A stretch of 56,389 nt of DNA from Propionibacteriaceae bacterium (GTDB lineage Bacteria > Actinomycetota > Actinomycetes > Propionibacteriales > Propionibacteriaceae), in the NCBI GenBank assembly GCA_017882685.1, contig JADGPA010000013.1, positions 1-56,389 of the forward strand, read 5' to 3'. Below are positions 13,515 through 56,244 of this stretch, in pieces. The translations under genes and the position numbers were made by a program. How positions within the stretch are numbered: the first letter of the stretch is position 1; every line of letters begins with the position of its first letter. A model generated the notes under the pieces. It did no database searches, was not told where the DNA came from, and saw only the letters and a list, made by a program, of their open reading frames with translations.

Positions 13515-13527
13515 CGGCGGCCTCCTT

Positions 13528-24463: not shown

Positions 24464-24608
24464 GAACTCCTCGCTCCCCCACACGCATCACCCGGTGCGG
24501 CGGTGACGATCGCCCCCACGGTAGCGGCCGCAACGCAGTGTCACCATGAGCAAACAGCGCACGCGCCAGTACCCGCGGAACCGCGCAGCGGGTCACGTCA
24601 CCATGCGA

Positions 24609-25744: not shown

Positions 25745-28700
25745 TCAGCTAATCCGCCGAGGCCTTCGCCGCGCGACCAGCAGCGCACCGATCACGATGC
25801 TCATCAGGCCAACAAAGCCAAGACCCCAGCCGGCCCCACCCGTGAAGGCCAGGGCTTCCGAGCTCGCGCCGAAGCGGTTGGTCACGGTGATGGTCAGTTG
25901 CTGGACGGTGTCAGGGTTGTCCGCCGTCACGGCGACGGACTGATCGAAATCGCCGTGGTCGACGGCGCTCTCCAGGGCCCCGCCAGTGCCGGTCTCGGCG
26001 CCCCAACAGTGGGTGCCGGCTGGCAGCAGCAGGGGCTGCCCTGCATCATCGAGGAGCTGCGTCGAGCCCGCGCCAGTGATGGTCACGTCACCGGCGTACA
26101 GCGGCGTTCCGTCGGCCGACTGCGCACACGTGACGGCGATCGTGAACACCGTGTCCCCGTGCTCCCCCGCGCCTGCGCCGGTCAGCTGCTTCACGATCGT
26201 CAGCGTGCCCGCCGAGTACTGGTTGGCCAGCTGGGCCGTCACCGCCGTGGTCGTCCCTGTGACGTTCACCGGGATGGCGAGCGTGTTCGCCCCGTTTGCT
26301 GTGTGCTGGGTGACCGTGCAGATCGAGCCGACCGGAATCGGTCCAAGGACGCCGGACTCGACGTAGCCCTGGCCGTCCACCGGCACCAGCGTCAGGTCCT
26401 GCTGGAACACGGGGGCGGTCGCGCCGTCCAATGCGCACTCGACCGTGAAGTTCGCCGGGCCAGCGAAGATCACGCCGGTGCCGGTGAGGTCCCAGTGCAG
26501 GACCAGTGAGCCGCTGCGGTAGTCGTTGGTGACCTCAACGGAGACCGGCTCGGCTCCAACGGTGACCGTGGTCGGGCTGATCGTGACCTGGGCTGCCGGG
26601 ATCGCGAGGGACGCGGCCGGCTCCGACACCTGGCAAGACGCCCCGAGCGGCAGCCCGGTGACGTCGACGCTGCCGGCACCGGTGATGGTGCGAGTGCTCC
26701 CACCCGGGATCGTCACCGGCACCGGCTCGCCCACGACAAGACGCGTGCAGTCCAGACGGACGGTGTAGGTGCCGCTGGCGTAAGGCTCGGCGGTTGTCGG
26801 CGCGCCGTCCACCTGGAGTCGCTTGGTCACCGTCACGGTGCCGACCTCGAAGGTGTTGGTGAGGGTTGCGATGTTGGCTTCGGCGTTCGCGTCGATGCTG
26901 ATCGTGACCGGGTCGGACGGGACGGTCGCGCCACCGGCCGCTGTCTCGGTGACAATGCACTCGGAACCAACCGGCACCGGGCCGAGCGGGTCGCTGTCGA
27001 GCCCCGCCGCGCGGGTGAGCGTGACCGTTGTGCTGAAGACGTCGTGCGGTGTCGCCACCCCGTCCTCTGCCAGCGTGCAGGAAACGGCGAACCGGAACTC
27101 CCGATCGCCATGGATGCCTGCGCCGTCGCCGGTCAGCACCTTGTGCACCGAGAGGGTGCTCGTGGTGAAGTCGTCGATGACCGTCAGCGTCGCGGGCCGG
27201 TCGGCGTCCGCCGTCACCACGGCCGCGATCGACGCGGCTGCGCCCGCCCCTGTCGTCGGGTCGTAGCTCACCCCCTGCGGAGCCAGGGACGCGGCTGTTT
27301 GGGTGACCGTGCAGCTGGCGCCCACCGGCAGGCCGGTGACCAGGCGCTCCCCCGGCCCGACGCTCGTCCAGCTGGCACCGCCCGGCACGGGGACGTCCAC
27401 CGTCACGCCGTTCACGTCACGGGTGCAGGCGACCGCTGTGGTGTAGCGGCCGCCGGCATACGGGTCGGCCGTTGACGTCACGCCGTCGAGCGTGAGGCCC
27501 AGCCGCACCCGCAGGGAGCCCTCGGTGAATGTGTTGGTGAGCGTTGCGGCGTTGCCTGCACTGTCGGCGATGCTGACCGTCACCGGCAGTGCCGGCTGGT
27601 CTGCGCCGCCGGCGGCGGTCTCGGTCACCGTGCAGGAGGAACCGACCGGGATCGGGCCCAGCGGGTCGCTGTCCAGGCCGGCGGCCCGGGTGAGGCTGAG
27701 CCCCGACGCCGAGAAGACCGCATGGTCCAGGCCGGAGGTGTCGGTCAGCGTGCAGGATACGTCGAAGGTGAACTCGCCATCGGCATAGGTCGCGGCACCC
27801 GCACCAGCCAGCGCCTTGCTGACCAGAAGCATGCCGGTGTGGTAGTCGTTCGTGACCGTGACGTCGACCCCGTCCGACGCCGGAACACTCACCAGCGGAT
27901 GGTCGACGCTCACTTGGCCGGCCGGGAGCGCGAGCCCTGCGGCCACCTCGGTGGCCGCGCAGGACGCGCCGGTCGGCAGGTCGGTGTAGGTGACCGAACT
28001 GGCACCGGTGACGGTGCGCACGCCGTCGCCGGCATCACCTACCGGGGCGGAATCCCCGGGGATGTCGAGGTAGACCGTTGCGCCGTCCACGTTGCGGGTG
28101 CAGGTGAGCTTCAGCTGGTAGGTCGCGGAGCTGTAGGGCTCGGCCGTGCTGGGCTTCCCGCCGACGAGAATCGCCTTGCTGACCCGCACCGAGCCGGTGC
28201 TGAAGTCGTTGACGAGCGTGACCGGCGACGGGTGGGCGGGATCCTGGCCCACGAAGAAGGTAGCGGGTTCTGCAGGCGTGTTCGCTGCGCCGGTGGCCGT
28301 CTCCGTGACGGTGCAGTCGGCCCCACTGGGCAGGTTGGTGATCGTCCAGTCCGGCTCGGGCCTGGTCACCTGGTGGTCGACCGCGAAGACCGTCACCGGT
28401 GCGGTGGCGTCGTCGGCGTCGGTGTCGAGGGTGCAGGCGGTGTGCAGCGTGAACGGGCCGTTGCCCCACGCGGCTGCACCGGTACCGGTGACCAGCTTGG
28501 TGATGGTCGCTGCGCCCATCCGGTAGTGGTTGGTGACGGCGACCGTGACCGGCGCCTCCCCGATTGTCAGGTCGGCTGTGGTGGCGGCCACCGCCGGCCT
28601 CCCGTCCAGCTGGACGGTGACGAGGGCAGCATTTCCGCTGCCGGTCTCTGTGACCGAGCACGCGGCGCCCTGCGGCAGGCCCGTGATCGGGTGGTTCTCC

Positions 28701-31700
28701 CCCGCAGCGAGGGCGAAGGAGGCGTCCTGGGTGGGCAGGCTCAGCGCCGTGCCGTCGAAGTCGCAGGCAACGGTGAAGCGGTAGCGGCCCGGATAGGCCA
28801 CCGGGTGTCCGTCGGCGTCGAGCGCGCCACCGTCATCGACGGTCTTGGTGACGGTGAAGCTGCCCACGCCGAAGTCGTTCACCAGCGTCGCCGTTGCGGT
28901 GTTGGCCGTCGCGGTGTCGTCGGGAATCGTCACGTCGGCCGGGTCGGCGGCCGAGGTGGCCCCGCCGGCTGCCGTCTCGGTCACACGGCAGTCGGAACCG
29001 ACCGGAATCGGGCCCAGCGGGGCGGACGTCAACGACCCTGCGCCGAGGGTGAGCCCATCGACGAAGACAGGATCGCCAAGCCCGGCGAGCGCGCAGCGGA
29101 CGGCGAAGTGGAACGGCCCGTCGCCGAAGGCTGCACCGGGTCCGGTGACCTGCTTTGCAACGATGAGCGAGCCGGTGCGGTAGTCGTTGGTGATGCCGAG
29201 TTCTGCCGGCTGGGCCGCTCCGGTGACGGTGACGATGGGCAGCGAGTAGCTCACCGACTGTGCGATCGGCGTGCTGGAAACCTCTGTCGCCGAGCAGTCA
29301 GCCCCCACCGGCAGCCCTGTGTAGAGCGCCTGCCAGCTGCTGGCGGCGTCGATCGTCCGCTCCGCAGCACCCGGCACAGGCACGACCTCCGCGACGCCGT
29401 TCACGAGCCGCGCGCAGTCCAGTCGGACGCCGAAGTGGCTCGTGGCCAGCTGGTCGGCCCAGCCGCCGGTGGTCGGCTTCACGCCATCGACGGTCATCGT
29501 CTTTGTGACCAACACGGCGCCCGTGCCGAAGAAGTTCGTCAGCCGCACCTGCGTCGGGGTGGCGGGCTGGTTGGCGACCACAACGTCCTGGGGTCCGGTG
29601 TGGCTGGTGGCGCCGCCGTCCGCGGTCTCGGTGGCGGTGCAGTACGCGCCGGTGGGCAGATTGGCGACCGCCCAGGTCGGGTCGGCCTTGGTCACGGTGC
29701 GGGTCAGGTCGTACACGACGACGGCTGGCGTGGCTGCATCAGCGTCGGTATCAAGGGTGCAGGCGAGCCGGACGCGGAACTGGGCGTTGCCCCAGTCGTC
29801 GGCACCGTCGCCCACCACCTGCTTGGTGACGGTGATCGCGCCGGTGTCGTAGGCGTTGGCGAAAGCCACCTGGTTCACCGAGGGGTCGTCCTCGAAGAAC
29901 GGCACCCACCCGCGCCGGAGCGTGAACGACGTCGTCGCAGCGGTGGCTGCAGCTGCGGCCGTGCCGTTCTGGGTGACCTGTACCGACGTGTGCGGGGCCG
30001 CACCCACTTCGGTCTCCGCGACCGCGCAGGACGCCCCGGCCGGCAGCCGGGCGAAGGCACGGGAGCCACCGTCGGGCAGCTCGAACGCCTGGCTGAGCAC
30101 AGGCACGCCGTTCAGGGTGCAGTCGGCCTGGAACCCGTAGGACGCGTGGTAGCCCACCGACTGGCCGTCTGCGTCGAGGGCGCCGCCGTTGCTCACGGAC
30201 TTGGCAACGGTGAAGCCGGCGTACTCGTAGGTGTTGGTGAGGCCCAGCTCAAGACCCTGCAAGGCTGCCGGTGTGCCCGCGGTGACCACGGCGGCGTTGT
30301 CGTAGCTGTCCAGCGCTGTGTAGGTGCTGCCGGCGCCCTGTGCGTCCACCTCTGTTGCGAAGCAGTGGCTGCCCAGCGGCACCCGGGACGGGAGCCCTGC
30401 GGCGTCGGTGACGTTGACCCTCTGCCCACCGGCGATGGTGACTCGGCGGGAGAACACGGTTCCGGCCACCCCGTCGACCTTCACCTGGCAGGTCACGTCG
30501 ATGACGAAGCTCGCTCCGGTCGCCCACGGTTCGGCAGCTGCCGCGCCGCCGAGCTGCTTGGTGAGCCAGACGGTGCCCGCACTGAACTGGTTGGTGAACG
30601 TGGCCAGATTGGCCGCGGCGTCCTCGGCGATGGTGAGGGTGACCGGGTCGGGCACGACGTCGGCGCCCCCGGATGCGGCTTCTGTGATCACGCAGACCGC
30701 GCCCACCGGCACCGGGCCGAGAGGGTCGGAGGCGAGCGTACCCAGCGTCGAGCCGGCGGGACGGCTGAGCGTCGTGGTGGCATGGAGGACCTCACCCGCG
30801 CCGGCGAGGGTGCAGGTGGTGTCGAAGCGGAACGGCCCGTCGCCGAAGGAGTCGGCGCCGGCTCCGGCCAGCTGCTTGCGGATGGTGAGCGCAGCGGTGT
30901 GGAAGTCGTTGGTGACGCCGAAGGCCTGCGGGCTGGCCGGGTCGGCACCGATCGTCACGGTGGCCGGGCTGATCGTGGCCCGCTGGCTGGCCGGCGAGCT
31001 GCCGGTCTCGGCGAGGGTGCAGGTTGCCCCGGTCGGAAGGTCGGAGAAGTCCGCGGTGCCGCCGCCGGTGATGGTGCGGCCCGCGCCGCCGGGGACGGCG
31101 ATCGGCGTGGCGACGCCGTTGACGAGGCGGGTGCAGGAAAGGGCGACGGTGTAGCTGCCGGCCGTCCACGGTGCTGCGGCGGTTGGTGCACCGTCAACGG
31201 TCAGGTGCTTGCTGACCCGGACGGCACCGGCGGTGTAGGTGTTGCGCACCGTCACTGCGGTCTCTGCCGTGCCGACGGTGAACGCCTGGTTGGTGAAGGA
31301 GGTGGCGTTGGCGGCCCCGGCGGCCGGCTCGGTCACCGTGCAGGACGCGCCGGTGGGCAGGTGGTTCACCCGCCAGGGGTCCGCGACCGTGAGCTGGTGG
31401 GTGCCGTCGTACACGGTGGTGCCGGTGGCGCTGGCCAGGGTGCAGACCAGCCGGACGGTGAACTGCGGGTCCGCCCACAGGGCTGCCCCGCTGCCTGCCA
31501 GGGCCTTGGTGATGAGGGTGGAGCCGGTGGTGTAGGTATTCGCGAAGGCGACGGTCGTCGCGGTCGCGTCCCCGCTGGTGAGGGCGAAGCCGGCGACGAG
31601 GGCACCGGCGTCGGTATCGGCCACCGGGCTACCGCCCTGGGTGATCGCTGTCGCTGTCGAGGCGGCGCCGGCGGTGTCGCTCTCCGTGACCTTGCAGGTG

Positions 31701-34700
31701 GCCCCGGTCGGAAGCCCGGCGAACTGCCTGGACGCTCCGGCGGCGATGGTGAAGCTGCGGTCGACGAGCGGGACCACCTCGACGCCCTTGAACATGCAGC
31801 TGGCGGTGAAGCCGGCCGCCCGGTAGCTGATCGCCGCACCGGTGGCATCCAAGGCCTGGCCGGTCTGGACGTTCTTGGTGACCGTGAAGCCGGCGTTGCG
31901 GAACTCGTTTGCGAACGCGACGGTGGTCACGTTGCCCGTAGCGGGGTTGAGCGCGATCGTCACCGGGTCGGGCGTGGTCACGGTGGTGGCGCCCGCCGTG
32001 GTGGTCTCTGTGACCGTGCAGACCGATGCTACCGGGATCGGCCCGAGCACGGCCGAGTCGAGGCTCGTCTGCCCGACGGCGGGGGTCAGGGTGACGCTGG
32101 TGGTGAATACCGTGCCGACCCCGGCCAGCGTGCAGCTGACGCTGAACACGAACGGTCCGGTGCCCCACGCGGAGCCGTCGCCGGTGATGTCCTTGTGGAC
32201 CACGAGCTTGCCCGCGGTGAAGCTGTTGGTGAGGGTCAGGTTCTGGGTGGTGCCCTGCACGGTGACGTTCGCGCTGACGCTGGGCGTCGGCTGTGGCTGG
32301 CTGACCACAACGGAGGTGCCCTCGGTGACCGTGCAGGACGCGCCCTGGGGCAGGTTGTTCCACGTGTAGGTGCCTGCGCCGGTGATCGTCTGGGTCGCGC
32401 CCGAGATGGTCAGGGCCTCGGCCGTGCCGTCGTTGTCGAAGTCCTTCGTGCACCCGATCGTGACCGGGTAGGAGCCGCCGGTCCACGGTTGTGCGGATGT
32501 GGCCGCGCCGTTGGCCCGTAGCACCTTGGTGACCTTCACAAAGCCGACGGTGAAGGTGTTGGTGACGGTGACCGCCTGGTTGGCTGCGGTGATCGTCGGC
32601 GTGGCGAGGCTGATGCTGCTGCTGTTCGCGCCGGCCTTCTTCGGCTCGCTCACCGTGCAGGCAGAGCCCGTCGGCAGGTTGCGGACGGCCCAGGTCTGGG
32701 TCTTCGTCAGCGTGTGTGTGCCGTTGTAGACGGTGATGGCAGAGGTGCCGGCGTTCGCGTCGTTGTCGAGGGTGCAGACCAGCCCGATCGTGAACGTGCC
32801 GCCGCCCCACAGTGCCGCGCCCGCTCCGGCCACCTGCTTGGTGATGTCCAGGCCGCCGGTTGTGTAGTGGTTGGTGAACCCGACCGCCGTGCCGGTGGCG
32901 TCCCCGGCGGCGAGGGTGAACGTCCCGGTGGTCGTCGCGTCGGTGTCGACGAGGGTGGACGCCCCCTGGGTGACCTTCACGGACGTGCGCGGCGAGCCGG
33001 CGGTGCCGGTCTCCACGATGGTGCAGGACGCGCCGGTGGGTAGCCCGGTGAACGGCTTGCTGCCGCCACCGGTGAGGGTGAACGTGCGGTCGGCGAGCGG
33101 GACGACCTCCCCGCCGTTGAACCGGCAGGAGGCGGTGAAGCTGTAGGCGCCGGCGTAGGGCACGGCCACACCGGAGGCGTCCAGGGCACCGCCGTTGTCC
33201 ACGGTCTTGGCGACGGTGAAGCCTGCGAACTGGAAGTCATTGTCGAAGCTGGCCGTCCGTGAGGCACCGGCGACCACCGGGTCGAGGACGTCGGTCCGCG
33301 ATGCCGGGAACACGACGCTGGCCCCGCCCGTGCCGGTCTCGGTGACGGTGCAGACAGCGCCCTGCGGGATGGGGCCGATGTCGCCGGAGTCGAGCGTGGT
33401 CTCGCTGCCGGAGCGCTGCAGCGTGATGCCGGTGCGGCTGAACACGGTGCCGGTGGTGCCATCGAGGCTGCAGGCGAGGTCGAACGTGAACGCCCCGGAG
33501 CCATAGGTGGCAGCGGCCGGACCCGTGATTCCCTTGCTGATCCGCACGCTGCCGTAGGCGAAGTCGTTGGTGACGGTGAGGTCGGCGGTGGCGGTGTTCG
33601 CGACGGTCACGCCGGTCGAGTAGGTGGTGCTGCTGGGCACCGGCTGGCTGGGGGTGCCGTCGGGGTAGGCGATGCCGGTCTCCGCGACCGCGCAGGTGGC
33701 GCCCTCGGGCAGCCCCGTCCAGGTGGCCGATCCGCCGCCGCTGATCGTCCGGGTCGGGCCGGAGAGCGTGAGGGCTTCCGCGGTGCCGTCGTTGTCGAAG
33801 TCCTTCGTGCAGGACAGCTGCATGGTGTAGCCGCCGCTCGCCCACGGCTGGGCGCTGGTGACGACGCCGTTGACCTTGAGCACCTTCGTCACCCGGACGG
33901 TGCCGGTGTTGAAGGTGTTGGTGACGGTGACGGTCTGGTTGGCCGCGGTGATTGTCGGGGTGCCGTTGGCGAAGGCGGTGGCGTTGGCGCCGGCGGCCTT
34001 CGGTTCGCTGACCGCGCAGGTCGCCCCTGTGGGCAGGTTGCGCACGGTCCAGGTCTGGCCGTCGGTGAGCTGGTGGGTGGCGGTGTGGACGCTGATCGCC
34101 GCGGTTCCCGCAAAGGCGTCGTTGTCGAGGGTGCAGGCCAGGGCGACGGTGAACGTGCCGGTGCCCCAGGCCGCTGCGCCGGCGCCGGCCAGCTGCTTGG
34201 TGATGTCCAGGCCGCCGGTGGTGTAGTGGTTGGTGAAGCCGACTGTCGTCGCTGTCGCGTCCCCGGTGGCAAGGGTGAACGCCCCGGTGCTCGTCGCGTC
34301 CGTATCGAGCAGGGTGGAGGCGCCCTGCGCCACCGTGACCGAGGTGCGGGGCGCTCCGGCGGTCCCGGTCTCCGTGACCGTGCAGGAGGCGCCGGACGGC
34401 AGCTGGCTGAACGCTTTGCTCGACCACGTCCCGGTGCCCTGCCTGGTGAGGTTGAACGAACGGTCGGCGAGCGGTACGACCTCTGCGCCGTTGAACAGGC
34501 AGGAGGCGGTGAACGCGTAGCTGCCGGCGTACGGCACGGGCACGCCGGAGGCGTCCACAGCACCGCCGTCGTCGACGTTCTTGGTGACGGTGAAGCCGCC
34601 GTAGCGGAAGTCGTTGCTGAACGTGGCGGTCTGGTTGGACCCGGCGGCGATCGCGTCGAGGGTGACGCTGCGGCTGGCCGGGGTGACGCTGGTGGCGCCG

Positions 34701-37700
34701 GCGGTCGCGGTCTCCGTGACCGTGCAGATCCCGCCCTGCGGGATGGGGCCGATGACGGCAGACGTGAGCGTGCTCTCCGACCCGGAGCGCTTCAGCGCGG
34801 TGCCGGTCCTCGTGAACACGGTGCCGGAGCCGGCGAGTGTGCAGCTGGTGTCAAAGCTGAACGTGCCGGACGCATAGGCGGCCGCGGCCTCACCGGTCAG
34901 CTGCTTGACTATCTGGACGCCGCCGTAGGCGAAGTTGTTCGTGACCTTCTGCGCCACGGTGGTGCCGTTGCCGACGGGGACCGTTGGCACGTCGAGCGTG
35001 GTGGTCGTCGGTTGCGGCTGGCTCGGCGTACCCACCGGGTAGCCGATGGCATCCTCGGTCGCCCAGCAGGTGGCGGCCTGCGGCAGGCCTGCCCAGGTGT
35101 AGCTGAAGCTGTTGGCGCTGTTGAGCACCTGCGTCGCGCTGACGGCCAGCTTGGTGAGATCGAGGGTCTCCGGGCTGCCGTTGACGGTCCGCGTGCAGTG
35201 CAGCGTCATGGTGTAGCTGCCACCCACCCAGGGCTGGGCGGTGGTGGCGACCCCGTTGACCTGCAGGGCCTTGGTGACCTTCACCGAGCCGGTGCGGAAC
35301 GTGTTGGTGACGGTCGTCGTGACAATGCCGGTGTTGATGGCGACCGTGCCGTTGGTGATGGGCGAGGTGTTCGCGCCGCCGTTGGCCGAGGTGGCCTCGG
35401 TGGTCGTGCAGCTGGCGCCCGTCGGCAGGTTGGTGATGTCGGGAATGGTGAGGCTGCCCTTGGAGACCGTGAAGTCCTTCGCGAAGACTGTCCCGGTGAT
35501 GAAGCCGGCCGCGGTGCAGGCGACGTGGAGGGTGAACGGGGCGGTCGCCCAGGTGGCGTTGACCGGGCTGAGCACCTTCACCACCCGCAGGGTGCCGATG
35601 CCGTAGGTGTTGGTGAAGGCGGCGGTCGTTGTGCTCGCGTCGCCCTCGGCCAGCGTGAAGGTGGTGGCAGCAGCGGTGGTCTTCGTCCCGGCGACCGCGT
35701 TCTGGGTCACCTGCACCTGGGTCGTTGTCGCTCCCGCCTTGCCGGTCTCCGTGATCGAGCAGCTCGCGCCGGTGGGCAGGTGATCGAAAGCCTTGCTCGA
35801 CCAGGAACCGTCCCCCTGCTTGGTGAGGGTGAAGGTGCGGTCGGCCAGCTTGACGACCTCGTTGCCGTTGAACAAGCAGGACGCCGTGAACGTGAACGTC
35901 GGGCTGTAGACGAGGATGGTGCCGTCCTGATCGGTCGCGCCGCTCGTGACGACGGTCTTGGTGACCGTGAACCCGGCATAGGTGTAGCCGTTCGTTGCGG
36001 TGATCGACAGTCTCTGGACGCTGCCCGGTGCCGCCGCGACGACCACGGCATTGGCGAACGTGTCGTGGTCGACGACGGAGGTGACCGCGCCGGCTGTGCC
36101 GGTCTCTGTCGCCCAGCAGTGGGTGCCGATCGGGAAGAGCCTGGAGTTGCCCCCGGCGTCCTTAAGGTCGGCGCTCTGGCCGCCCCTGACGTTCACGGTG
36201 GCGTTGTAGCTGTACGGCCCGGCTGCAGCAAGGCCGCATTTCACGGCGATCGCGAAAGTGGGTGCGGTCGCCCAGGCCTCGGCTGCCGCAGGACCGGTGA
36301 GAGTCTTGGTGATGGTCACCGTGCCGGCGGAGAAGCTGTTGGTGAAGCCGACGGTGGTCACGTCGGCGGTGACCGGGTTGGGGCTGATGGTCCTGACCTG
36401 GTCGGCCGGGGTGGCGTCGGCGCCGCCGTTGTCGGTTTCGTGGACAGTGCACTCTGCCCCGAACGGGATCGGGCCGAGGGGCGCAGAGGTCAACGCCGCA
36501 GCGGTGAGCGTGACGCCGGTGCGGGTGAACACGGCCGTGGGATAGCCCGCCAGGGTGCAGGACACGTCGAAGCTCGCCGCACTGAAGAACGACGTGCCCG
36601 CGCCGGCGAGCGCCTTGGTGATGACGAGCTTTCCCGCGGGGAAGTCGTTGCTCACCGTGATCTGGCTGGTCGTGGCATCGCCGACGGTGACCGGGTCGGT
36701 GATGGTGACGACCGGGTCGGGTTGGGCAGGGCTGAGCGCAACGGTGCCTTCGGACGCGGCGCAGCTGGCGCCGGCGGGCAGGCCGTCGAACGTGACTGCC
36801 CAGTGGCTGGCAGCGGTGAGCTGCCGGGTGGCGCCGCCGGGGATGGCCACAGGAGTGCTGGTGCCGTCGACCTGGCGGGTGCAGGCCAGCGTCACCGGGT
36901 AGCTGCCGTCGGCCCACGGGCTGGAGGCGGTGTTCTGGCCGTTGGCCAGCACCCGCTTGGACACCAGCACGGAGCCGGAGGCGAAGGTGTTGGTGATGGT
37001 CACCATGGCCGGTTCCACCGGGTTGGACCCGACGGTGAAGGTACCCCCGGTCACGCTGCTGGCGTTGGCGCCGCCGGTGCGGGGCTCCGTGACCGTGCAG
37101 CGGGCGCCGGTGGCCAGGTCGGTCACCGTCCAGGTCGTGTCAATCCTGGTCAGGGTGTGCCGGGCCGTGTAGACCACGCCCGGGTCGGCATCGCTGGAGG
37201 TACAGGTGAGCTCAGCCTCGAAGACCTGGTCCGCCCAAAGGGACGCGCCCGCGCCGCCAAGGGCCTTGGTGATCGTGACCGCGCCCGTGGTGTAGCTGTT
37301 GGTGACGGCGACGCCGGTGACCGTGGCGTCCCCTGCGACGAGGCCGAAGGTGGCCGTGTCGGCGTCCGCCGTGGTCGTCCTTGCGTCCTGGGTCACGGCG
37401 ATGCTGGTTCCGGCTGCGCCGGCCGCGTAGGTCTCCGTGACGGTGCAGTCTGCACCGGCCGGCAGCCCGGTGAACGGCCTGGACTGGCCTGCCCGCAGCG
37501 AGAACGTGGCGTCGGCCGTCGGGACAACCTCCGTGCCCACGAAGGTGCAGCTGGTGGCGAACGTGTAGTCCTTGAAGCGCACCGGCTGCCCGGCGGCATC
37601 CTTGGCCATCGGCCCGGTGACGTCCTTGGTGACGGTGAACCCGGCGTTGCGGTAGGTGTTGGTGACCGCGAGCGTGCCGGGCTGGCCGCCGCTGTGGGGG

Positions 37701-40700
37701 TGGGCGACGTTGGGCACCTCGACGTAGGTCCGGTCGGCGACAGCAGACGGGGCGGAGTAGCTGACCTCTGCCCCGGGCACGGACGTCTCGGTGATCGCGC
37801 AATCGGCACCGAGTGGCAGGTTCACGGCCCCGGTGCCGTTGTAGGCCAGCGACGTGCCGTCGGCGGCCAGGCTGACAACGCTCGCGTCCACCGAGCTGGT
37901 GCTGCCGCGCAGGTCGACCCTCTGGCCTCCGGAGGTGCAGGCAAGGGTGGCTTCGTAGCTCGCCGGCAGAAGGTTGAGCCAGGCTGCTCCTGACGGTGCC
38001 ACGACGATCTTGGTGAGGTCGAGTTGCCCGCTCGCGAGCGCGATGCCGGCCTTGCGCGGCTCGGTCACCAGGGAGGAACGGGCCGGGAAGGTCGCGGAAT
38101 CGGCGGTGCGGGAGCCGATCGCTGCGGAGTTCCACGCGATCGGGTCGGTGGTGGTCGGGTCGGCGACGGCTGCTGAGGTGGGCGTGCGGGTGTCGAAGCG
38201 CAGGCTGAGCCTCTCGCCCGGCGCGAGGCCCTCTGCAGGGTCGTCGAAGGTGAGCAGGAACTTCACGGCCTTCGCCGTGGCGAGGGTGTCGGCGTCGGTT
38301 CCCGCGGTGAACTCGTGCCAGTCGATGCCGCAGTTGTCCTGCCCGGCTGGTTTGGTGTCGTTGAGGATGTCGGCCTTGTTGCAGCTCGCGCCGAACACGG
38401 TGGTGGTGTAGAAGGTGCGCAGGTGGTGCGCTGCCGCTGAGGTCGGCAGGTCGAGCTGCACGTTGCCGAGGAGGAGGGGTGCGAACTTCGACTTTCGTGA
38501 CGTGCCCACGGTGACCCCGGTATCGCCGGGTGCCGGCAGCACGTCGATGCTGCTGATCATGTTGGCTGCGACGTTGCCCTTGCTGGCGAGGGCGAGCTGC
38601 CAGGTCTCCGTGCCGCCGGGTCGCGTGATCGGCGTGCACGGGTAGGAGTAGAAGCCGTCGGCGTTGGGCTGCTGGCAGGCCACCGCGTCGGTTGCGCCGA
38701 CCGCCATGACGCCGAGGTCGTCATAGTTCGGGTCGCCCGGAGTGGCACCGACGGCACCGGCCCCGTCACCCTTCACCGACTTGCTGACCGTCATCGGGGT
38801 GGACGCGGCAGTGACGACGGTGGTGCTCGCCGCGCACTCGGCGACGTCGGCGAGGGAGGCCTGCGCCTTCGCGTCCGTGGTGTAGTCGCACTTCTCGAAC
38901 GGACGGTCAGAGCTCACCCGCACGTTGTTGGTGACGACGGTGCCGCGGTCGAGGCGGTCACGGAAGCGCAGGTTCGTCGTGACAAGCAGGACGGAGCCGG
39001 GGGCAAGGGTGAAGCCCGCCGGCACGTCGACGCTCAGGTCGCCGGTGTTCGCGTCGAGGGCGACGGTGAAGCCGGTCGCGACGATGCCGTTGACCTTCAC
39101 GGTGAAAGGCGCGGCGATGTCGGCTGCAACCAGTGGAGAACTGCCGCCGACGAGGTCGATGTGGTCAGCCACCTGCAGGCCGGTCATGGCCCAGGTGCCG
39201 GTGTTGGTCACCTTCAGCTGATAACCGATTGTGGCGTCGAGGTCGTAGTGGGGCGCCTGCGAACCGGCGCCCTGGCCCGGCGTCTTCTCCACCAACACCA
39301 TGTTCACCCGGTGCTTCAGCGTGGTGGACGCGGAGTCGGTCGCGGTGTCGGTGTAGGGCGCAGTGTTGTTCATCCAGCCGGCGACGCCGGTGGCGGTCGC
39401 GGTATCGCTGAACACGCCGGGGCTGGTCTCGCCGGGCGCTGTCGGCTGGCCCTTGCGGGTGGTGGGCACCGGGGTGTCGCTGGCCCCACTGACGCCGTAG
39501 ACAAGGGTGGCGCGCCGGGTGGCGTTGAGCCGCAGCACGAGGGTGGGGTCGGCGGGCCGCTCCCACTGGAGCACCTGCCCGTTCTCACGGTGCTGTGCCT
39601 CGACCTGGACGCCGCGCACGCCGCTGAAGCTGGTCCCGGCCGGCAGGACGAGATGCACCTGGCCATCGACGCTTGCGCTGGTCCAGTCGCCGGCGTGCCA
39701 GCACGCGGTGAGGTCGGTGCTGCCGGAGCACAGCGCGGTCAGCTGGCCGCCGGAGGCGTCGTAGGTGACCCCGGTGAGCACCGACAGCCGGAGGTCGGTG
39801 ATCGGCGCAGGCAACGTCACCGCCGGCAGACCGGCCAGGTCGAACGCGTTCCAGAAGGTGGGCGCTGCGTCGGTGACAGTGAGCTGCTTGGTGCGCGCGG
39901 TGCCGTCCGGCTGCGCGGCGAGGGTGACCACGTAGCCGCTGGCGGACTGGTCCTCGTAGCGGCTCGCCCAGTTCAGCGACTTGTCGAGCGAGACGGTGTA
40001 GGTGGGCTGGACGATGGTGAGACTGCCGGCGTCGTCCGCTGACGGCTCGTCGCAGCCCGCTCCCCCGGTGCAGCTGATGCCGCCGGGGCTGTGCAGCTCG
40101 ACGCGGGCGGTGTTGGTGACGACGTCCTGGTCTGCGACCAGCATGGCCGGGTCGCCGCGCAGGTGGGAGCGCAGCTGGTAGGTCAGCACGACGGTGGCGC
40201 TCGCACCAGTCGCGATCAGCGCACGGGCCGGGTCGGCGAGGTTGGCCTCGGCGCCGTAGCGGACGGTCACCCCGACCACGTCGGCGAGCTGGGCAGGGGT
40301 GAGCGCGACCGCCTCTGCGTAGCTGTGTTCTTGCGTGCTGCCGTCGGCCATGGCAAGGCTGATTGTGACGTCGGTTGCACTGAGGTCATCGGGCAGGGCG
40401 GTGAACTGGAGCTGGTACAGGTTCAGCCGGTCGTACGCGCCGAGGCCGGTGGTGGCAGGGGACGGGTCGGCGATGGTGAGCTCAGGGACCCGGCTGGCGG
40501 TGTTGTTCGTTGCCACGAGGGTGGTGCGTACCAGCGGGTAGTCACCGGCAGCGGTGGTCTCGAGCTGCGGCAGGCCCAGGTGCGTCTGGTCAAGGGTCTT
40601 GGTCAGGGACACGTTCAGCGGCTGGTCGAGGATGCTGATGCCGGCGGTGTCGCTGGTGGTCACGGTGGTGTTGCCCTGCTCGTCGGGCTCGGTGAGGGTG

Positions 40701-43591
40701 CCGGTGGCCCGGACATGGTTGTTGACCGTGCCGGCGTGACCGGAGTTGTAGCTGTACGAGTGGGTGTCACCCAGCGCGTAGTGGGCGGCGTCGCTGCGCA
40801 GCGTCCGCCGCAGCTGGTAGTCGAAGCGGATCTGGCGGCTGGCGCTGGAGCTGAGGGCGACGGCGCCGGTCTGGCTGGCGCTGCCCGGGGCGAAGGTCAG
40901 GCGCACGGCGAGGGTGGTCGCGCGCTGTGCGTCGGTGAGGGTGTAGCCGGGGAATCCGCCGTCGCAGGCCGAGCCCGAGCCGCACGCCTGGCCGGTGACG
41001 TCCACCCAGCCGTTGGCCGCCGAGGAGTACAGCTCGACAGCACTCACCCGGTCCTTGCCGATCTGCGGGTCCGTCGCCGTCGTGATCGGACGGATGCCGA
41101 CAAGGTCGAAGGCGTCGTAGAACGAGGTGGAGGGGCTGGCGTAGCCGGGGTCGTCGACAACCTGCAGGCTGGAAAGGCTCAGCCCGTCAGTGCCCCAGCC
41201 GAGCACGGCGGTCCGGGTGTCATCGGTGAGCGCGGAGATGTTGGTCGCGTCGACCTGGTCGCCGCCGATCGGGTCGATCCAGCGCTTGGTGACCAGCCAG
41301 AGGGTGCCGTCGCCGCCGGCGCCGGCAGTGGGACGCAGGGTGGTAACGGCGGTCGTGCTGGCGCTGACGACCGGCTGGATGGCGACGGCGTTCCCGACCT
41401 CGGTGGCGGCCGTGTCGGAGACGACAGTCGGGGTGGCGCCGCCGGTGGTGGCGACGGCTGAGTCACTGCGCAGTGCACGTCGCAGGGTCACGTCGAAGCG
41501 GGGTGCGACGGTGAAGCCGACGGGCAGCAGGGTACCGGCGGTCTTCGGCGTGAAGGCGAAGCGCAGCCCGGTGATGGCGGCCCGCTGTGCGTCGGTGGGA
41601 CTGAACGACCAGTCCGGGACCGGGCCGGCGACCGGGCCGGCGAGGGGAAGCCATGCGTTGCCGTCGAAGTAGCTGACGGTGAGGTTGGCGTTGGCGGGGA
41701 TGTCGGTGGAGTGGATGCGGCGCAGGTCGAAGTAGTCCCAGAAGCCGGCGTCGATGTCGTTCACCTGCAGGTACTCGGCGCCCACCGTCGAACTCTGCGA
41801 CACCCGTCCGGTGATGCTCACCGTGTTGGTGGTGCCCGGCGTCGCCCAGATGGTGTCCCGGGTGAAGGTCTTCGTCGTGCTGGTCCGCACGCGCTGTGGC
41901 AGCAGGGTCAGTTCAGCGGTCGCAGTGTCCGCGCCCGTGTCCGGGGTCGAGCTGGTCACCTCGGCGCGCACGGTGTTGTCTGCGGCCACGCCGGCTTCCT
42001 GGGCGACCGGCCCGGCGGTGACCAGGAACGGCACCGTGGCCTTCGCGCGGGAGTCGATGCCGTCGCCCGGCGCGGTGAACACGATGGTGAACCCGGTGAC
42101 GGTCCGGGTCGGGTCCGGGTCCGGGTCGGGCAGGGTGTCGGCTGTGTCGGTGCCGAGTGTCTGGGGCCCGCCGTCTGTGTAGCGGTAGGTGATCTCTGCA
42201 TGTGTGGTACCGGAGGGCCAGGTGAGCTGCCGGGGCGCCTGCGGGTCGGTGACGAAACCGCCGAAGGCCAGGCCCTGCGCGACCAGGTCGTCGTGGCCGG
42301 ACGCGGGCTCGCTCACCTCGAACCGGGAGACCGGTATGACGCCGTTGGTCGCCGTCACCGTCGCTGTTGTGCTCTTGCCACTGACGAGTTGGTCGGTGGC
42401 GTAGGTCTTGCTCACCGCCACCTTGACGGGCTGCTTCTGGAAGGTGATGCTCGCGCTGGCCTGGTCGGTGGCGCTGTCGGCGTCGAGGCTGACGGTGGCG
42501 CGCACAGTGTTCGAGACATCGAGGGATTGGTCCGCCCCGAGTGCGTCGAAGGCGTCCCTGCTGACCGTCCTGATGGTCAGCTTCGCTGTCGCTCCGGGGG
42601 CGATCGCCTTGGCTGCGGCCCCGGTGAAGGTGGTCCGGAGTCCCTTGACCGCTGCACGGTCGGACGGCAGGAGGGCGTCCGGGTCGTTCGGTGGGGTGAC
42701 TGCTGTGCCGGCGTGCCAGTCGGTGCCGTCGAACCAGTCCAGCTGTACCCGCGTCGCGGCGTCGGGCATTTCGAGGTCGGTGAGCCCGGTGACAGCGAGG
42801 TAGTCGAATGCCGAGTGGGCGGTGTCGACCGGGTCGGTGAGCTGGAGGGAGTCGACGGAGACGTTGGAGTCGTTCGTGCCGCCGATCGTGAAGGTCGCGG
42901 TGCGGCCGGCCAGCGCGGGGATCGTCTGGCCCGGGGTCGCCGACTTGGTGGCGTGCGCGGCGAGCTTCGTGGGGATGGACAGCTTGAATGCCGCGGTGTC
43001 GGAGACGCTGTCGGCGTTTCCGGCGCTGATCGTGGCCGTGTTTCGGATCGTCCTGCCGTCGAAGTCGCCGGACGACGTGGTTGGCACCAACACGTTCACG
43101 GTCACAGTTGCAAGGACGCCGGCCTCGAGGCCGTCCCCGTTGAACTTCACGGTGAGCGTGCGTGCACTGACTGATGCTGTGGCGATGTTCGGTGTGATCG
43201 ACATCGGGCTGTCGTCGAAGGCCAGGGGTTCGGGCAGGTCGTCGATGAGCTTGGCGGCGAGGCAGGTGCCGGTCTCGGTGCTGCTGCACTGGAGGTTGAC
43301 GGTGAAGCTGAAGCGGTCGCCCGGGTGGAAGGTCGGCACCTGGTCCTGATGATCGGTGATGTACTGCTCGATCGTCAGTTCGGCGTCGGTGTCCGCTGCC
43401 AGGGCAGTCAGGGGCAGTGCCAGCACGGTCAACAGCAGACTGCACAGGATGCTGAGAGCAGCGCGAAGCGTGCGGCGAGCTCCCAGCTGCGGGTTGCTGG
43501 TCAAGGTGGCGGCCTTCGTGAGGGGCACCGCGCGGAGGTACGCGGTTGGCGGAAAAGTACCTGAAAGGCGTGCCAGGGACCCCTCCTTCAC
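25745..43591 (-). CDS. Giant modular cell-wall-anchored surface protein, 5,948 aa
   Basis: One uninterrupted gene for a very large surface protein. Residues 1-66 hold a long signal peptide (hydrophobic core SILCSLLLTVLALPLTALA). Residues about 67-1856 form adhesin-like sheet domains with recurring FDYL/FDLxxI and RRALRSD patterns and DUF11-like linkers. From residue 1857 to 5910 there are 36 modules of about 112 aa resembling DUF5979, each with xxTK at the start, C-x3-E in the middle and TN[TDS][FY] at the end. The C-terminus has LAFTG (5914-5918), a hydrophobic helix and the tail RRRPRRIS, a sortase sorting signal of class E type. The GTG start at 43591 has GGAGA 4 nt upstream but is not fully certain. 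Likely an adhesin or stalk on the cell surface; ligand unknown. Confidence 0.9.
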   Translation of the reverse strand: MKEGSLARLSGTFPPTAYLRAVPLTKAATLTSNPQLGARRTLRAALSILCSLLLTVLALPLTALAADTDAELTIEQYITDHQDQVPTFHPGDRFSFTVNLQCSSTETGTCLAAKLIDDLPEPLAFDDSPMSITPNIATASVSARTLTVKFNGDGLEAGVLATVTVNVLVPTTSSGDFDGRTIRNTATISAGNADSVSDTAAFKLSIPTKLAAHATKSATPGQTIPALAGRTATFTIGGTNDSNVSVDSLQLTDPVDTAHSAFDYLAVTGLTDLEMPDAATRVQLDWFDGTDWHAGTAVTPPNDPDALLPSDRAAVKGLRTTFTGAAAKAIAPGATAKLTIRTVSRDAFDALGADQSLDVSNTVRATVSLDADSATDQASASITFQKQPVKVAVSKTYATDQLVSGKSTTATVTATNGVIPVSRFEVSEPASGHDDLVAQGLAFGGFVTDPQAPRQLTWPSGTTHAEITYRYTDGGPQTLGTDTADTLPDPDPDPTRTVTGFTIVFTAPGDGIDSRAKATVPFLVTAGPVAQEAGVAADNTVRAEVTSSTPDTGADTATAELTLLPQRVRTSTTKTFTRDTIWATPGTTNTVSITGRVSQSSTVGAEYLQVNDIDAGFWDYFDLRRIHSTDIPANANLTVSYFDGNAWLPLAGPVAGPVPDWSFSPTDAQRAAITGLRFAFTPKTAGTLLPVGFTVAPRFDVTLRRALRSDSAVATTGGATPTVVSDTAATEVGNAVAIQPVVSASTTAVTTLRPTAGAGGDGTLWLVTKRWIDPIGGDQVDATNISALTDDTRTAVLGWGTDGLSLSSLQVVDDPGYASPSTSFYDAFDLVGIRPITTATDPQIGKDRVSAVELYSSAANGWVDVTGQACGSGSACDGGFPGYTLTDAQRATTLAVRLTFAPGSASQTGAVALSSSASRQIRFDYQLRRTLRSDAAHYALGDTHSYSYNSGHAGTVNNHVRATGTLTEPDEQGNTTVTTSDTAGISILDQPLNVSLTKTLDQTHLGLPQLETTAAGDYPLVRTTLVATNNTASRVPELTIADPSPATTGLGAYDRLNLYQLQFTALPDDLSATDVTISLAMADGSTQEHSYAEAVALTPAQLADVVGVTVRYGAEANLADPARALIATGASATVVLTYQLRSHLRGDPAMLVADQDVVTNTARVELHSPGGISCTGGAGCDEPSADDAGSLTIVQPTYTVSLDKSLNWASRYEDQSASGYVVTLAAQPDGTARTKQLTVTDAAPTFWNAFDLAGLPAVTLPAPITDLRLSVLTGVTYDASGGQLTALCSGSTDLTACWHAGDWTSASVDGQVHLVLPAGTSFSGVRGVQVEAQHRENGQVLQWERPADPTLVLRLNATRRATLVYGVSGASDTPVPTTRKGQPTAPGETSPGVFSDTATATGVAGWMNNTAPYTDTATDSASTTLKHRVNMVLVEKTPGQGAGSQAPHYDLDATIGYQLKVTNTGTWAMTGLQVADHIDLVGGSSPLVAADIAAPFTVKVNGIVATGFTVALDANTGDLSVDVPAGFTLAPGSVLLVTTNLRFRDRLDRGTVVTNNVRVSSDRPFEKCDYTTDAKAQASLADVAECAASTTVVTAASTPMTVSKSVKGDGAGAVGATPGDPNYDDLGVMAVGATDAVACQQPNADGFYSYPCTPITRPGGTETWQLALASKGNVAANMISSIDVLPAPGDTGVTVGTSRKSKFAPLLLGNVQLDLPTSAAAHHLRTFYTTTVFGASCNKADILNDTKPAGQDNCGIDWHEFTAGTDADTLATAKAVKFLLTFDDPAEGLAPGERLSLRFDTRTPTSAAVADPTTTDPIAWNSAAIGSRTADSATFPARSSLVTEPRKAGIALASGQLDLTKIVVAPSGAAWLNLLPASYEATLACTSGGQRVDLRGSTSSVDASVVSLAADGTSLAYNGTGAVNLPLGADCAITETSVPGAEVSYSAPSAVADRTYVEVPNVAHPHSGGQPGTLAVTNTYRNAGFTVTKDVTGPMAKDAAGQPVRFKDYTFATSCTFVGTEVVPTADATFSLRAGQSRPFTGLPAGADCTVTETYAAGAAGTSIAVTQDARTTTADADTATFGLVAGDATVTGVAVTNSYTTGAVTITKALGGAGASLWADQVFEAELTCTSSDADPGVVYTARHTLTRIDTTWTVTDLATGARCTVTEPRTGGANASSVTGGTFTVGSNPVEPAMVTITNTFASGSVLVSKRVLANGQNTASSPWADGSYPVTLACTRQVDGTSTPVAIPGGATRQLTAASHWAVTFDGLPAGASCAASEGTVALSPAQPDPVVTITDPVTVGDATTSQITVSNDFPAGKLVITKALAGAGTSFFSAASFDVSCTLAGYPTAVFTRTGVTLTAAALTSAPLGPIPFGAECTVHETDNGGADATPADQVRTISPNPVTADVTTVGFTNSFSAGTVTITKTLTGPAAAEAWATAPTFAIAVKCGLAAAGPYSYNATVNVRGGQSADLKDAGGNSRLFPIGTHCWATETGTAGAVTSVVDHDTFANAVVVAAAPGSVQRLSITATNGYTYAGFTVTKTVVTSGATDQDGTILVYSPTFTFTASCLFNGNEVVKLADRTFTLTKQGDGSWSSKAFDHLPTGASCSITETGKAGATTTQVQVTQNAVAGTKTTAAATTFTLAEGDASTTTAAFTNTYGIGTLRVVKVLSPVNATWATAPFTLHVACTAAGFITGTVFAKDFTVSKGSLTIPDITNLPTGASCTTTEATSANGGANTSPITNGTVAINTGIVTTTVTNTFRTGSVKVTKALQVNGVATTAQPWVGGSYTMTLHCTRTVNGSPETLDLTKLAVSATQVLNSANSFSYTWAGLPQAATCWATEDAIGYPVGTPSQPQPTTTTLDVPTVPVGNGTTVAQKVTNNFAYGGVQIVKQLTGEAAAAYASGTFSFDTSCTLAGSGTVFTRTGTALKRSGSESTLTSAVIGPIPQGGICTVTETATAGATSVTPASRSVTLDAIAAGSNQTATFSNDFRYGGFTVTKNVDDGGAVDASGVPVPYAGSYAFTASCLFNGAEVVPLADRSFNLTRQGTGTWSSKAFSQLPSGASCTVTETGTAGAPRTSVTVAQGASTLLDTDATSTGAFTLATGDATATTVGFTNHYTTGGLDITKQLAGAGAAAWGTGTFTVALACTLDNDAFAGTAAISVHTATHQLTDGQTWTVRNLPTGATCAVSEPKAAGANATAFANGTPTITAANQTVTVTNTFNTGTVRVTKVLKVNGVVTSAQPWASGGYTMQLSCTKDFDNDGTAEALTLSGPTRTISGGGSATWTGLPEGATCAVAETGIAYPDGTPSQPVPSSTTYSTGVTVANTATADLTVTNDFAYGSVRISKGITGPAAATYGSGAFTFDLACSLDGTTGTVFSRTGITLQRSGSETTLDSGDIGPIPQGAVCTVTETGTGGASVVFPASRTDVLDPVVAGASRTASFDNDFQFAGFTVAKTVDNGGALDASGVAVPYAGAYSFTASCRFNGGEVVPLADRTFTLTGGGSKPFTGLPTGASCTIVETGTAGSPRTSVKVTQGASTLVDTDATTTGTFTLAAGDATGTAVGFTNHYTTGGLDITKQVAGAGAALWGGGTFTIGLVCTLDNDANAGTSAITVYNGTHTLTKTQTWAVRNLPTGSACTVSEPKKAGANSSSISLATPTITAANQAVTVTNTFTVGFVKVTKVLRANGAATSAQPWTGGSYPVTIGCTKDFDNDGTAEALTISGATQTITGAGTYTWNNLPQGASCTVTEGTSVVVSQPQPTPSVSANVTVQGTTQNLTLTNSFTAGKLVVHKDITGDGSAWGTGPFVFSVSCTLAGVGTVFTTSVTLTPAVGQTSLDSAVLGPIPVASVCTVTETTTAGATTVTTPDPVTIALNPATGNVTTVAFANEFRNAGFTVTKNVQTGQALDATGAAISYRAAGFTASCMFKGVEVVPLVDRSFTIAAGASRQFAGLPTGATCKVTESDTAGAASTATAITQGGSPVADTDAGALVAGFALTSGDATATTVAFANTYTTGSTLITKALAGSGAALWADPQFTVRLVCTLASATGTTVYDGTHQLTVADPWRVNHLPTGASCTVTEPAAGAANATSFTNQAFTVGTAETAVTVRNTYTAGAVRVSKHLTVDGAPTAAAPWTAGSYTVALSCTRLVNGVATPIAVPGGAGRTITGGGTADFSDLPTGATCTLAETGSSPASQRATISPATVTIGADPASPQAFGVTNDFHTAALTIRKQLAGAGADSFGDGPFRFDTTCTLAGAGEVLHATTTLSRPAGSTLGTLASDPLGPVPVGAVCVITEAASGGADVVPDPVTLTIAEDAAANLATFTNQFSAGTVWLTKQLGGAAAAEPWATGASFVIDVTCQVKVDGVAGTVFSRRVTIAGGQRVNVTDAAGLPSRVPLGSHCFATEVDAQGAGSTYTALDSYDNAAVVTAGTPAALQGLELGLTNTYEYAGFTVAKSVSNGGALDADGQSVGYHASYGFQADCTLNGVPVLSQAFELPDGGSRAFARLPAGASCAVAETEVGAAPHTSVQVTQNGTAAAAATAATTSFTLRRGWVPFFEDDPSVNQVAFANAYDTGAITVTKQVVGDGADDWGNAQFRVRLACTLDTDADAATPAVVVYDLTRTVTKADPTWAVANLPTGAYCTATETADGGATSHTGPQDVVVANQPATPTQVRLTNFFGTGAVLVTKTMTVDGVKPTTGGWADQLATSHFGVRLDCARLVNGVAEVVPVPGAAERTIDAASSWQALYTGLPVGADCSATEVSSTPIAQSVSYSLPIVTVTGAAQPAELGITNDYRTGSLIVAKQVTGPGAAFGDGPFHFAVRCALAGLGDPVFVDGLTLGAGSLTSAPLGPIPVGSDCRVTETAAGGATSAADPADVTIPDDTATANTATATLVNDFGVGSFTVTKTVDDGGALDADGHPVAYPGRYRFTVACDFDGTALSLPTQDASFALAAGENHPITGLPQGAACSVTETGSGNAALVTVQLDGRPAVAATTADLTIGEAPVTVAVTNHYRMGAATITKLVTGTGAAAWGNGPFTLHTACTLDTDADDATAPVTVFAVDHQVTRPEPDWTITNLPSGADCTVTETATGAANTPAEPATFFVGQDPAHPSPVTLVNDFSTGSVRVSKAILVGGKPSTAEPYSSATYQLKLTCTRNVDGATVYLDIPGDSAPVGDAGDGVRTVTGASSVTYTDLPTGASCAATEVAAGLALPAGQVSVDHPLVSVPASDGVDVTVTNDYHTGMLLVSKALAGAGAATYADGEFTFDVSCTLTDTSGLDHAVFSASGLSLTRAAGLDSDPLGPIPVGSSCTVTETAAGGADQPALPVTVSIADSAGNAATLTNTFTEGSLRVRLGLTLDGVTSTADPYAGGRYTTAVACTRDVNGVTVDVPVPGGASWTSVGPGERLVTGLPVGASCTVTQTAASLAPQGVSYDPTTGAGAAASIAAVVTADADRPATLTVIDDFTTSTLSVHKVLTGDGAGIHGDREFRFAVSCTLAEDGVATPHDVFSTTVTLTRAAGLDSDPLGPVPVGSECIVTETAAGGATVPSDPVTISIDANAEANIATLTNTFEVGTVTVTKRLQVDGAPTTAEPYASGTYTVRLDCTRLVVGEPVPVTIPGGSTRTITGAGSVDVTGLPLGASCQVSEPAASLAIPAAQVTISPTTVTVGAEPVSVEVTNDYRSGSLVLHWDLTGTGVIFAGPANFTVECALDGATAPVFQQDLTLVPVDGQGYVESGVLGPIPVGSICTVTQHTANGANTLAIPVNVTGTTTAVTAQLANQYSAGTLTIVKQLTGAGAGEHGDTVFTIAVTCAQSADGTPLYAGDVTITGAGSTQLLDDAGQPLLLPAGTHCWGAETGTGGALESAVDHGDFDQSVAVTADNPDTVQQLTITVTNRFGASSEALAFTGGAGWGLGFVGLMSIVIGALLVARRRPRRIS
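25838..25852 (-). other. LAFTG sortase sorting motif
   Basis: Codons for LAFTG at residues 5914-5918, followed by a Gly-rich spacer, a hydrophobic stretch of about 18 residues (GFVGLMSIVIGALLVA) and a basic tail. This is the standard wall-anchor layout. An Ala in place of Pro at the second position is typical of class E sortase substrates in actinobacteria. No sortase gene occurs in this window. Confidence 0.8.
25862..37645 (-). repeat. 35-module Ig-like repeat array with fixed A-B-C-D-E order
   Basis: Thirty-five modules (2-36 of the protein) of about 101-126 codons. Type A starts GFTVTK and contains VVPLADRxF; type B contains a W-G segment and LPTGAxCTVxEP; type C has LxVNG and CTRxVNG; type D contains LGPIPxGxxCTVTE; type E has a G[TS]HC[WF] signature. 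Read from the N-terminus the order is ABCD (37645-36326), E (36325-35978), four ABCD (35977-30578), E (30577-30221), two ABCD (30220-27521), two CD (27520-26210) and E (26209-25862). Module 1 (38023-37646) is divergent and not typed. Boundaries were placed at the glycine or equivalent that begins the first strand. Confidence 0.82.
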
Positions 43592-56182: not shown

Positions 56183-56244
56183 CGGCATCCTTCGTCAGCC
56201 GGGCTTAGCGCTCCCATAAGGCTACTCGTCGCCCGAACCAGCCC

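Follow-up and report, generated by a model that had tools for sequence, protein, structure and literature searches.

Order and conservation of module types in a giant, predicted wall-anchored DUF5979 protein of a Propionibacteriaceae bacterium

The repeat stalks of bacteria are commonly pictured as strings of beads that are all equivalent and drift in number. A giant gene in contig JADGPA010000013.1 of a Propionibacteriaceae bacterium (assembly GCA_017882685.1; the 56,389-nucleotide stretch analysed is called the window here) raises the question of whether such beads can be told apart and, if so, what keeps them in order. The gene (25745..43591; it and all its parts lie on the minus strand) encodes 5948 amino acids (aa) from the GTG of the open reading frame (ORF) list, a start codon given as listed and provisional. 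In a profile search of the assembly, all 36 listed matches to PF19407 (DUF5979) exceeded the curated cut-off and all lay inside this ORF. Here the beads are typed, and their order agrees one for one over 36 positions in two species whose module sequences have diverged by half. We think it probable that the protein is a covalently locked, wall-anchored stalk that grew by recombination in register, starting from a founder array whose modules were already differentiated.

Five module types in a fixed order

Cuts placed where the domains end, at N-x-(F/Y), gave an atypical first module, M000 (type 0, 37652..38029, from the domain cut and a 70-row tree), and 35 modules at 25871-37651, which a sequence-only reading had placed at 25862-37645. 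From the N-terminus on, the order is 0, ABCD, E, ABCD x4, E, ABCD x2, CD x2, E. The types are those of the identity clustering and the 35-module tree described below. The first block comprises M01A (37292..37651), M02B (36983..37291), M03C (36641..36982) and M04D (36332..36640) and is followed by M05E (35984..36331). The next four blocks run through M06A (35603..35983), M07B (35297..35602), M08C (34931..35296) and M09D (34607..34930); M10A (34223..34606), M11B (33911..34222), M12C (33560..33910) and M13D (33233..33559); M14A (32864..33232), M15B (32552..32863), M16C (32219..32551) and M17D (31901..32218); and M18A (31532..31900), M19B (31235..31531), M20C (30902..31234) and M21D (30584..30901), up to M22E (30227..30583). 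Two more blocks, M23A (29849..30226), M24B (29528..29848), M25C (29180..29527) and M26D (28871..29179), then M27A (28523..28870), M28B (28202..28522), M29C (27842..28201) and M30D (27527..27841), lead to the CD pairs M31C (27167..27526) with M32D (26849..27166) and M33C (26519..26848) with M34D (26216..26518), and to the last module, M35E (25871..26215).

Average-linkage clustering of the 35 modules on pairwise identity, with no labels supplied, recovered the five types exactly at k=5 (adjusted Rand 1.0; 0.72 at k=4 and 0.96 at k=6). Mean identity was 44% within types and 28% between types, and it peaked at an offset of four modules (mean 0.413 vs 0.311 in shuffled orders; reached in 0/10,000). 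The nearest other module was of the same type in 35/35 cases, so that a clustering of neighbours irrespective of type, which we looked for, did not appear. The five types and the fixed order proposed by the sequence-only reading were thus recovered exactly as described, with one nuance: C comes after D twice (31C, 33C), so D may be succeeded by A, C or E.

A maximum-likelihood tree of the 35 modules, from which M000 was left out, gave single clades for A (100/98), C (100/99), D (96/94) and E (100/99). The expectation that every type would be monophyletic held for these four but not for B, which was split by one long branch, the divergent M07B, although a single B clade was not rejected (approximately unbiased test, P = 0.197). 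In a quicker tree of 139 modules M07B was placed in a group of 22 Bs, with 94 in the Shimodaira–Hasegawa-like approximate likelihood ratio test; the B rows from other genera were scattered (7 changes for 29 rows), and a Mumia D stood apart from the remaining Ds.

Tandem Repeats Finder reported no array in the module region of the window, and the best module pair had 80.5% DNA identity. Together with the 35-module tree and the clustering, this rules out a simple single-domain tandem repeat, as the sequence-only reading had held; the types are old and their order is kept, as described below. Periscope proteins are defined by near-identical DNA repeats of variable number, and by that definition the giant protein is not one of them. 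They reportedly project a head from the cell on repeat-domain stalks of varying length; the repeats of the window protein, by comparison, have diverged from one another, and two species share its 36-module string.

Collinear orthologues and changes of array length

DUF5979 matches were present in 15/30 genomes of the genus, the window's own included. Typed giant arrays occurred in three (G116, G153 and G066) of the nine other genomes whose regions were examined; relatives were typed with hidden Markov models (HMMs) that had been made from the window's modules for each of the five types, and module 0, which the HMMs left untyped, was named by its place. Outside these nine stood G092, G127, G158, G159 and G160, with one DUF5979 match each, and G102 offered contig fragments only. 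Two further giant open frames were seen, of 7506 aa in G150 (contig C20, loci L059 and L060) and 4985 aa in G137 (contig C37, locus L040), and the parts of them examined (2404 and 2833 aa) carry DUF5979 modules outside the five types. Loci L060 and L063 gave no match with the HMM made for this analysis.

The G116 array has the same type string as the window, 36 modules at about 50% identity, whereas the G153 array has 32 modules (without CDCD) and that of G066 has 23. The G116 genome is a single contig of 3.26 Mb. The window belongs to a fragmented assembly (2.99 Mb in 215 contigs, 88.9% complete), which could raise the suspicion that its array is an assembly artefact of a metagenome bin. An identical string in a one-contig genome contradicts this, there is no Tandem Repeats Finder array in the modules to mislead an assembler, and we give the idea practically no credence.

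We aligned the arrays by identity alone, with a score of identity minus 0.36 and a gap cost of 0.25, both our own choice. All 36 positions were collinear between the window and G116. G153 had nothing opposite 29C-32D, and G066 had nothing opposite 08C-11B and 20C-28B. Each of these three gaps (4, 4 and 9 modules, with the exact breakpoint uncertain among alike modules) brings B next to C, and there was no type mismatch in the three comparisons with the window; the alignment of G153 with G066 gave two mismatched pairs where gaps overlap. Same-position identity exceeded that of within-type shuffles for each relative (0/10,000), but since the pairing for G153 and G066 was taken from the array alignment, only G116 is an independent test. 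Taken singly, modules had their best same-type match at the same position in 25/35 cases against G116 and 21/28 against G153. BLAST best matches fell at the same position for 30/36 modules against G116, one of them a tie, and missed it for modules 7, 8, 10, 11, 14 and 31C.

What has kept the order? One answer, the idea of the sequence-only reading, is selection: each type would have faces that pack only with its usual neighbours, and the rod would acquire a defined super-helical repeat. The one-for-one agreement with G116 at about 50% identity speaks for it, the more so as a malic enzyme encoded in the window is 85% identical between the same two genomes. That enzyme, found in two of the three relatives, served as the divergence reference instead of the Lon protease encoded in the window at 47252-49561 (minus strand), which had no close counterpart in the three relatives from the genus (42% at best, over a short stretch). 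Selection would also fit the nine kinds of transition, chain end counted, that are the only ones among the 127 modules of the four orthologues, and the shortness of the predicted linkers, 1-2 residues from one module's last strand to the first strand of the next. However, D accepts A, C or E as the next module, other genera tolerate other orders, and the spacer between modules has the same length whatever the junction, so nothing type-specific is seen at the joints. We therefore lean against selected order, while regarding it as possible.

The order might equally be a by-product. If recombination depends on similarity, like modules are joined to like and a founder order is kept without selection, an explanation compatible with the one we prefer and to which we give even chances. 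At each of the three gaps B meets C and the order stays legal, the outcome to be expected if like modules were exchanged. In the window, moreover, D9-A10-B11 and D13-A14-B15 have become homogenised, each module with its counterpart four places on: D9/D13, A10/A14 and B11/B15 are closer to each other (61-75% aa identity) than to their own orthologues, while the pair C12/C16 (0.55-0.57) does not exceed its orthologues (0.53-0.61). As judged from these identities, the most recent event in the window homogenised a three-module stretch at a four-module period, starting with D. On the other side, the DNA of same-type modules is on average only 58% identical and shares exact runs of at most 27 bases, so that present-day exchange should be rare. 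The 36-module string has moreover stayed the same in two species that have diverged, a hint of some constraint on length.

Whole-ABCD-unit duplication was assessed by Mantel correlation, comparing the modules of one unit with each other. In the window protein A-B (0.61), A-C (0.74) and B-C (0.50) were congruent, each value being reached by <4% of 5,040 permutations, but the D of the same unit was not (A-D -0.10, C-D 0.18). The D of the preceding unit was congruent with A (0.35, 34/720) and B (0.68, 6/720), not with C (0.22). No such pair fell under 5% in G116 (A-B 0.27, A-C -0.13, B-C 0.16) or G153 (A-B 0.28, A-C -0.27, B-C 0.08), and the isolated value under 5% in G116 was C with the preceding D (0.45, 32/720). 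Whole ABCD units are thus not supported as the ancient unit of duplication, the congruence of A, B and C being confined to the window protein. Of the four-module evolutionary unit that the sequence-only reading had proposed, what survives is the kept order, the in-register length gaps and the recent homogenisation at period four; a run from A to D is unsupported, the recent stretch starting with D and the gaps breaking between B and C.

Related arrays outside the genus bear on the age of the types. Scanning with the head alignment found heads at 25-63% identity in 24 loci, in genera that include Mumia, Aeromicrobium, Nocardioides, Leucobacter, Agromyces and Microbacterium. The arrays there are short: 0-ABCD-ABc in Mumia, 0-ABC-b-D-E in Aeromicrobium and 0-ABDE-b-ABDE-b in Leucobacter, where lower case marks weak typing and the first module is called 0 by its place in the 70-row tree. 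Among matches listed in 394 genomes of the class, the longest DUF5979 open frame in a genome other than the window's is about 3,150 aa. The 70-row tree, covering five genera and made after two Nocardioides head fragments had been dropped, gave clades for A (98/96), E (99/90) and 0 (100/98). Of the 30 strong A modules with a next module in 41 proteins from outside the ortholog set, 25 were followed by B or b, and among strong pairs B was followed by A 10 times, C 9 times and D twice. Tree and transitions together indicate that A, E, 0 and the A-B step are old; as far as these comparisons go, types A, E and module 0 predate the genera. The same transitions confine the strict order to this genus as far as sampled, and a universal grammar of the family is ruled out by the other orders found in other genera.

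In the explanation we prefer, types 0, A and E, and probably B, C and D, would already have been distinct in a short founder array common to other actinobacterial genera. Within this genus, Propionicimonas, recombination between like modules would then have changed the length of the array and thereby kept its order.

Predicted locks and lock-free modules

A profile of the 35 modules matched pilin CnaB chains in the PDB, best 5u5o/5u6f (2.1e-7), with the Lys, the Glu and both Cys aligned. An AlphaFold2 model of M01A-M06A (A-B-C-D-E-A), from 21 alignment rows, had a mean predicted local distance difference test score of 92 with no residue <50; its predicted template modelling score was 0.61, so relative domain orientations are not secure. 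One or two residues separate the last and first strands of neighbouring modules. In 6/6 domains the Lys lies in the first strand, the Glu and the second Cys share one inner strand, and the Asn is in the last strand, all five residues falling within strands.

The best PDB match is an isopeptide domain with a disulfide from the 7651-aa adhesin of Mobiluncus mulieris, in which a Lys-Asn bond and a disulfide, the latter partly formed in crystals, were established by mass spectrometry and crystal structures (PMC10619420). Counting along our alignment puts the aligned cysteines of 5u5o/5u6f at 6867 and 6895, whereas the printed numbers there are 6887 and 6895, and for that reason we infer, rather than read off, the Cys pairing of the window modules. 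A survey lists DUF5979 as a CnaB-like isopeptide family (PMC12617251); all 36 window modules match PF19407, and their usual Lys-Glu-Asn pattern is the one tabulated there. The modules look like CnaB isopeptide domains, as far as residues can tell, and 31C and 34D of the window fall outside the Lys/Glu/Asn criterion.

Both Cys columns hold Cys in 127/127 modules of the four orthologues, and the 36 window modules contain exactly 72 cysteines. Lys, Glu and Asn are each present in 119/127. The modules without Lys and those without Glu are the identical set of eight: window 31C and 34D; G116 23A, 31C and 34D; G153 30D, collinear with window 34D; and, in G066, 18C (collinear with 31C) and 21D (collinear with 34D). 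Given the kinship of the sequences, these represent three positions (23A, 31C, 34D) and not eight events, and a naive Fisher test of joint Lys/Glu loss (8e-13), which ignores that kinship, is overstated. Asn is altered in six of the eight. In the window, M31C has L, Q and D in place of Lys, Glu and Asn, M34D has W and Q in place of Lys and Glu and keeps its Asn, and both retain their two cysteines. The module before the last E is lock-free in 4/4 orthologues, and 31C in all three that have the position, each time with Q and D at the Glu and Asn places. The third position, 23A (L038), carries Asn and Gln at the Lys and Glu places and is lock-free only in G116 among the four species. Absence of the bond residues is thus confined to fixed places near the wall in four species, plus one G116 case. 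Separately, G116 27A has Lys and Glu with Asp at the Asn place, and G116 10A was cut short. In G153 (L058), the four modules without counterpart include the lock-free 31C, and the lock-free penultimate D is retained.

Outside the four orthologues there were 155 module matches; nine, gapped at the Lys/Glu columns, were set aside, and the 146 with both columns aligned all had Lys. Glu was missing from its column in 23 of these, many of which have a Glu one residue on, by eye. A further 123 matches from named relatives, head fragments included, contained five rows gapped there and one Lys-less row, VADTN (L078, type score 2), which by eye is not a module. The spacer between a module's Asn and the Lys of its successor measures 10 residues in 121/123 junctions of the four orthologues, whatever the types (L065 and L067, duplicates of G066 and G153, were left out). 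The exceptions are G116 10A-11B, whose Asn fell outside the cut (10 by eye), and G066 17D-18C, adjoining a lock-free module.

Nearly all stalk modules have the Glu of the inner strand and a Cys pair as well, and would accordingly resemble their relatives in making their own bond between the Lys of the first strand and the Asn of the last. Across each lock a pulling force would run from Lys to Asn and on through the short spacer to the next module; with a spacer of 10 residues between them, successive locks would carry the force along, and little stretching of the rod is expected. Isopeptide and ester domain work (PMC8382745) suggests that modules locked in this way should not unfold. A lock-free module would unfold until stopped by its disulfide.

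Could Lys, Glu and Asn be conserved for folding only, with no bond formed and the lock-free modules merely degenerate? Same-position identity between window and G116 is below the average of 0.50 at 31C (0.40) and 34D (0.44), which argues for decay. But Lys and Glu are lost only jointly, at three positions, with both Cys retained, and the Q and D of 31C recur in 3/3 species; these features argue against plain decay, and we judge the folding-only explanation very improbable. The absence of the lock at 34D and 31C may reflect a role as shock absorber or release site, or else decay. A bolder proposal is that the stalk is mechanically programmed, with nearly all modules locked and inextensible and with 31C and 34D, beside the anchor, lock-free but disulfide-bonded since before the species split, serving as shock absorber or release point. 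We hold this only tentatively and consider it rather unlikely.

The idea that some stalk domains are sacrificial shock absorbers, unfolding to dissipate work, has been put forward for staphylococcal and clostridial adhesins (PMC9241160); in the window protein that part would fall to a few modules in an array that is otherwise locked. The Mobiluncus adhesin resembles the window protein as a giant LPxTG-anchored actinobacterial protein of immunoglobulin (Ig)-like domains, but mixes ester with isopeptide domains and has a predicted thioester domain; its available account sorts domains by bond type and, in those sections, describes no ordered subtypes or conserved lock-free positions (PMC10619420). 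Nor is super-repeat order treated in the accessible part of the DUF5979 survey (PMC12617251). The A-band super-repeats of titin have position-differentiated domains in a longer repeat and position-specific conservation; these are Ig and FnIII domains of muscle and an analogy only (PMC10665226). We found no account of ordered subtypes in an isopeptide stalk in the literature searched, which covered few subscription journals. The domain family and its bond have been described before, as have giant crosslinked stalks; the conserved super-repeat order and the lock-free positions look new. One protein makes it testable whether domain order is selected or merely inherited, and whether unlocked domains are placed on purpose to tune stalk mechanics.

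Head, anchor and neighbouring genes

The N-terminal head (aa 66-1854, 38030..43396) consists of about nine CnaA-like (CLIPPER-type) segments, picked by eye from a Lys/Asn pattern and measuring 140-250 aa from start motif to start motif. A Lys stands at the start of 8/9 segments and is kept in 4/4 orthologues; the first segment lacks it. The matched Asn is kept in five of eight segments; of the other three, two have Asp in the window and one has Ala in G116. In segments 2-4 the Lys is invariant in 18 heads over several genera. Pfam matches were weak: DUF7507 in all four members (best E 0.0034; in the window 14.3 bits against a cut-off of 27), DUF7927 in two (best E 0.022), and others in single members. 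NCBIfam gave a sub-threshold RrgB-like domain. We infer that the head is CnaA-like, with the first, Lys-less and Cys-bearing domain the best tip candidate.

At its N-terminus the giant protein has a hydrophobic stretch resembling an export signal, read by eye. Its C-terminal end (25748..25870), also read by eye, carries LAFTG, a hydrophobic stretch and an Arg-rich tail; we take LAFTG, by its motif, to be a sortase signal. The single sortase match, which NCBIfam places in class E, lies elsewhere in the assembly. Export signal, long repeat stalk and sortase anchor are features of a fibrillar adhesin, recognised from sequence. The protein would thus be secreted and anchored to the wall, with the CnaA-like segments distal and the 36 CnaB-like DUF5979 domains carrying them off the cell; surface display of this kind could serve attachment or flocs.

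Several points weigh against the locked, wall-anchored stalk of recombinational origin that we favour. Bond formation, display and stiffness are predicted here from sequence and a model. Searches of the head with Pfam and NCBIfam identified no adhesive domain, only the weak DUF7507, DUF7927 and RrgB-like matches. B has no clade support in the 35-module tree, and the 70-row tree across genera splits B, C and D, though single clades are not rejected (D, P = 0.096). The A-B, A-C and B-C congruence is absent in G116 and G153, which leaves an ancient duplication of whole ABCD units unsupported. The direction of the gaps, loss or gain, is presumed, there being no outgroup to fix it.

Among the neighbouring genes, a LuxR-type, MalT-like regulator with tetratricopeptide repeat (TPR) regions (21947-24484, minus strand) is encoded on the strand of the giant gene, about 1.3 kb downstream of it, and a second LuxR-type regulator with TPR regions is at 54500-56188 (minus strand). 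At 9896-16637, also on the minus strand, are genes like those of membrane-bound hydrogenase or Complex I-related systems, with a 49/30-kDa-like subunit, two proton-antiporter subunits and NADHdh.

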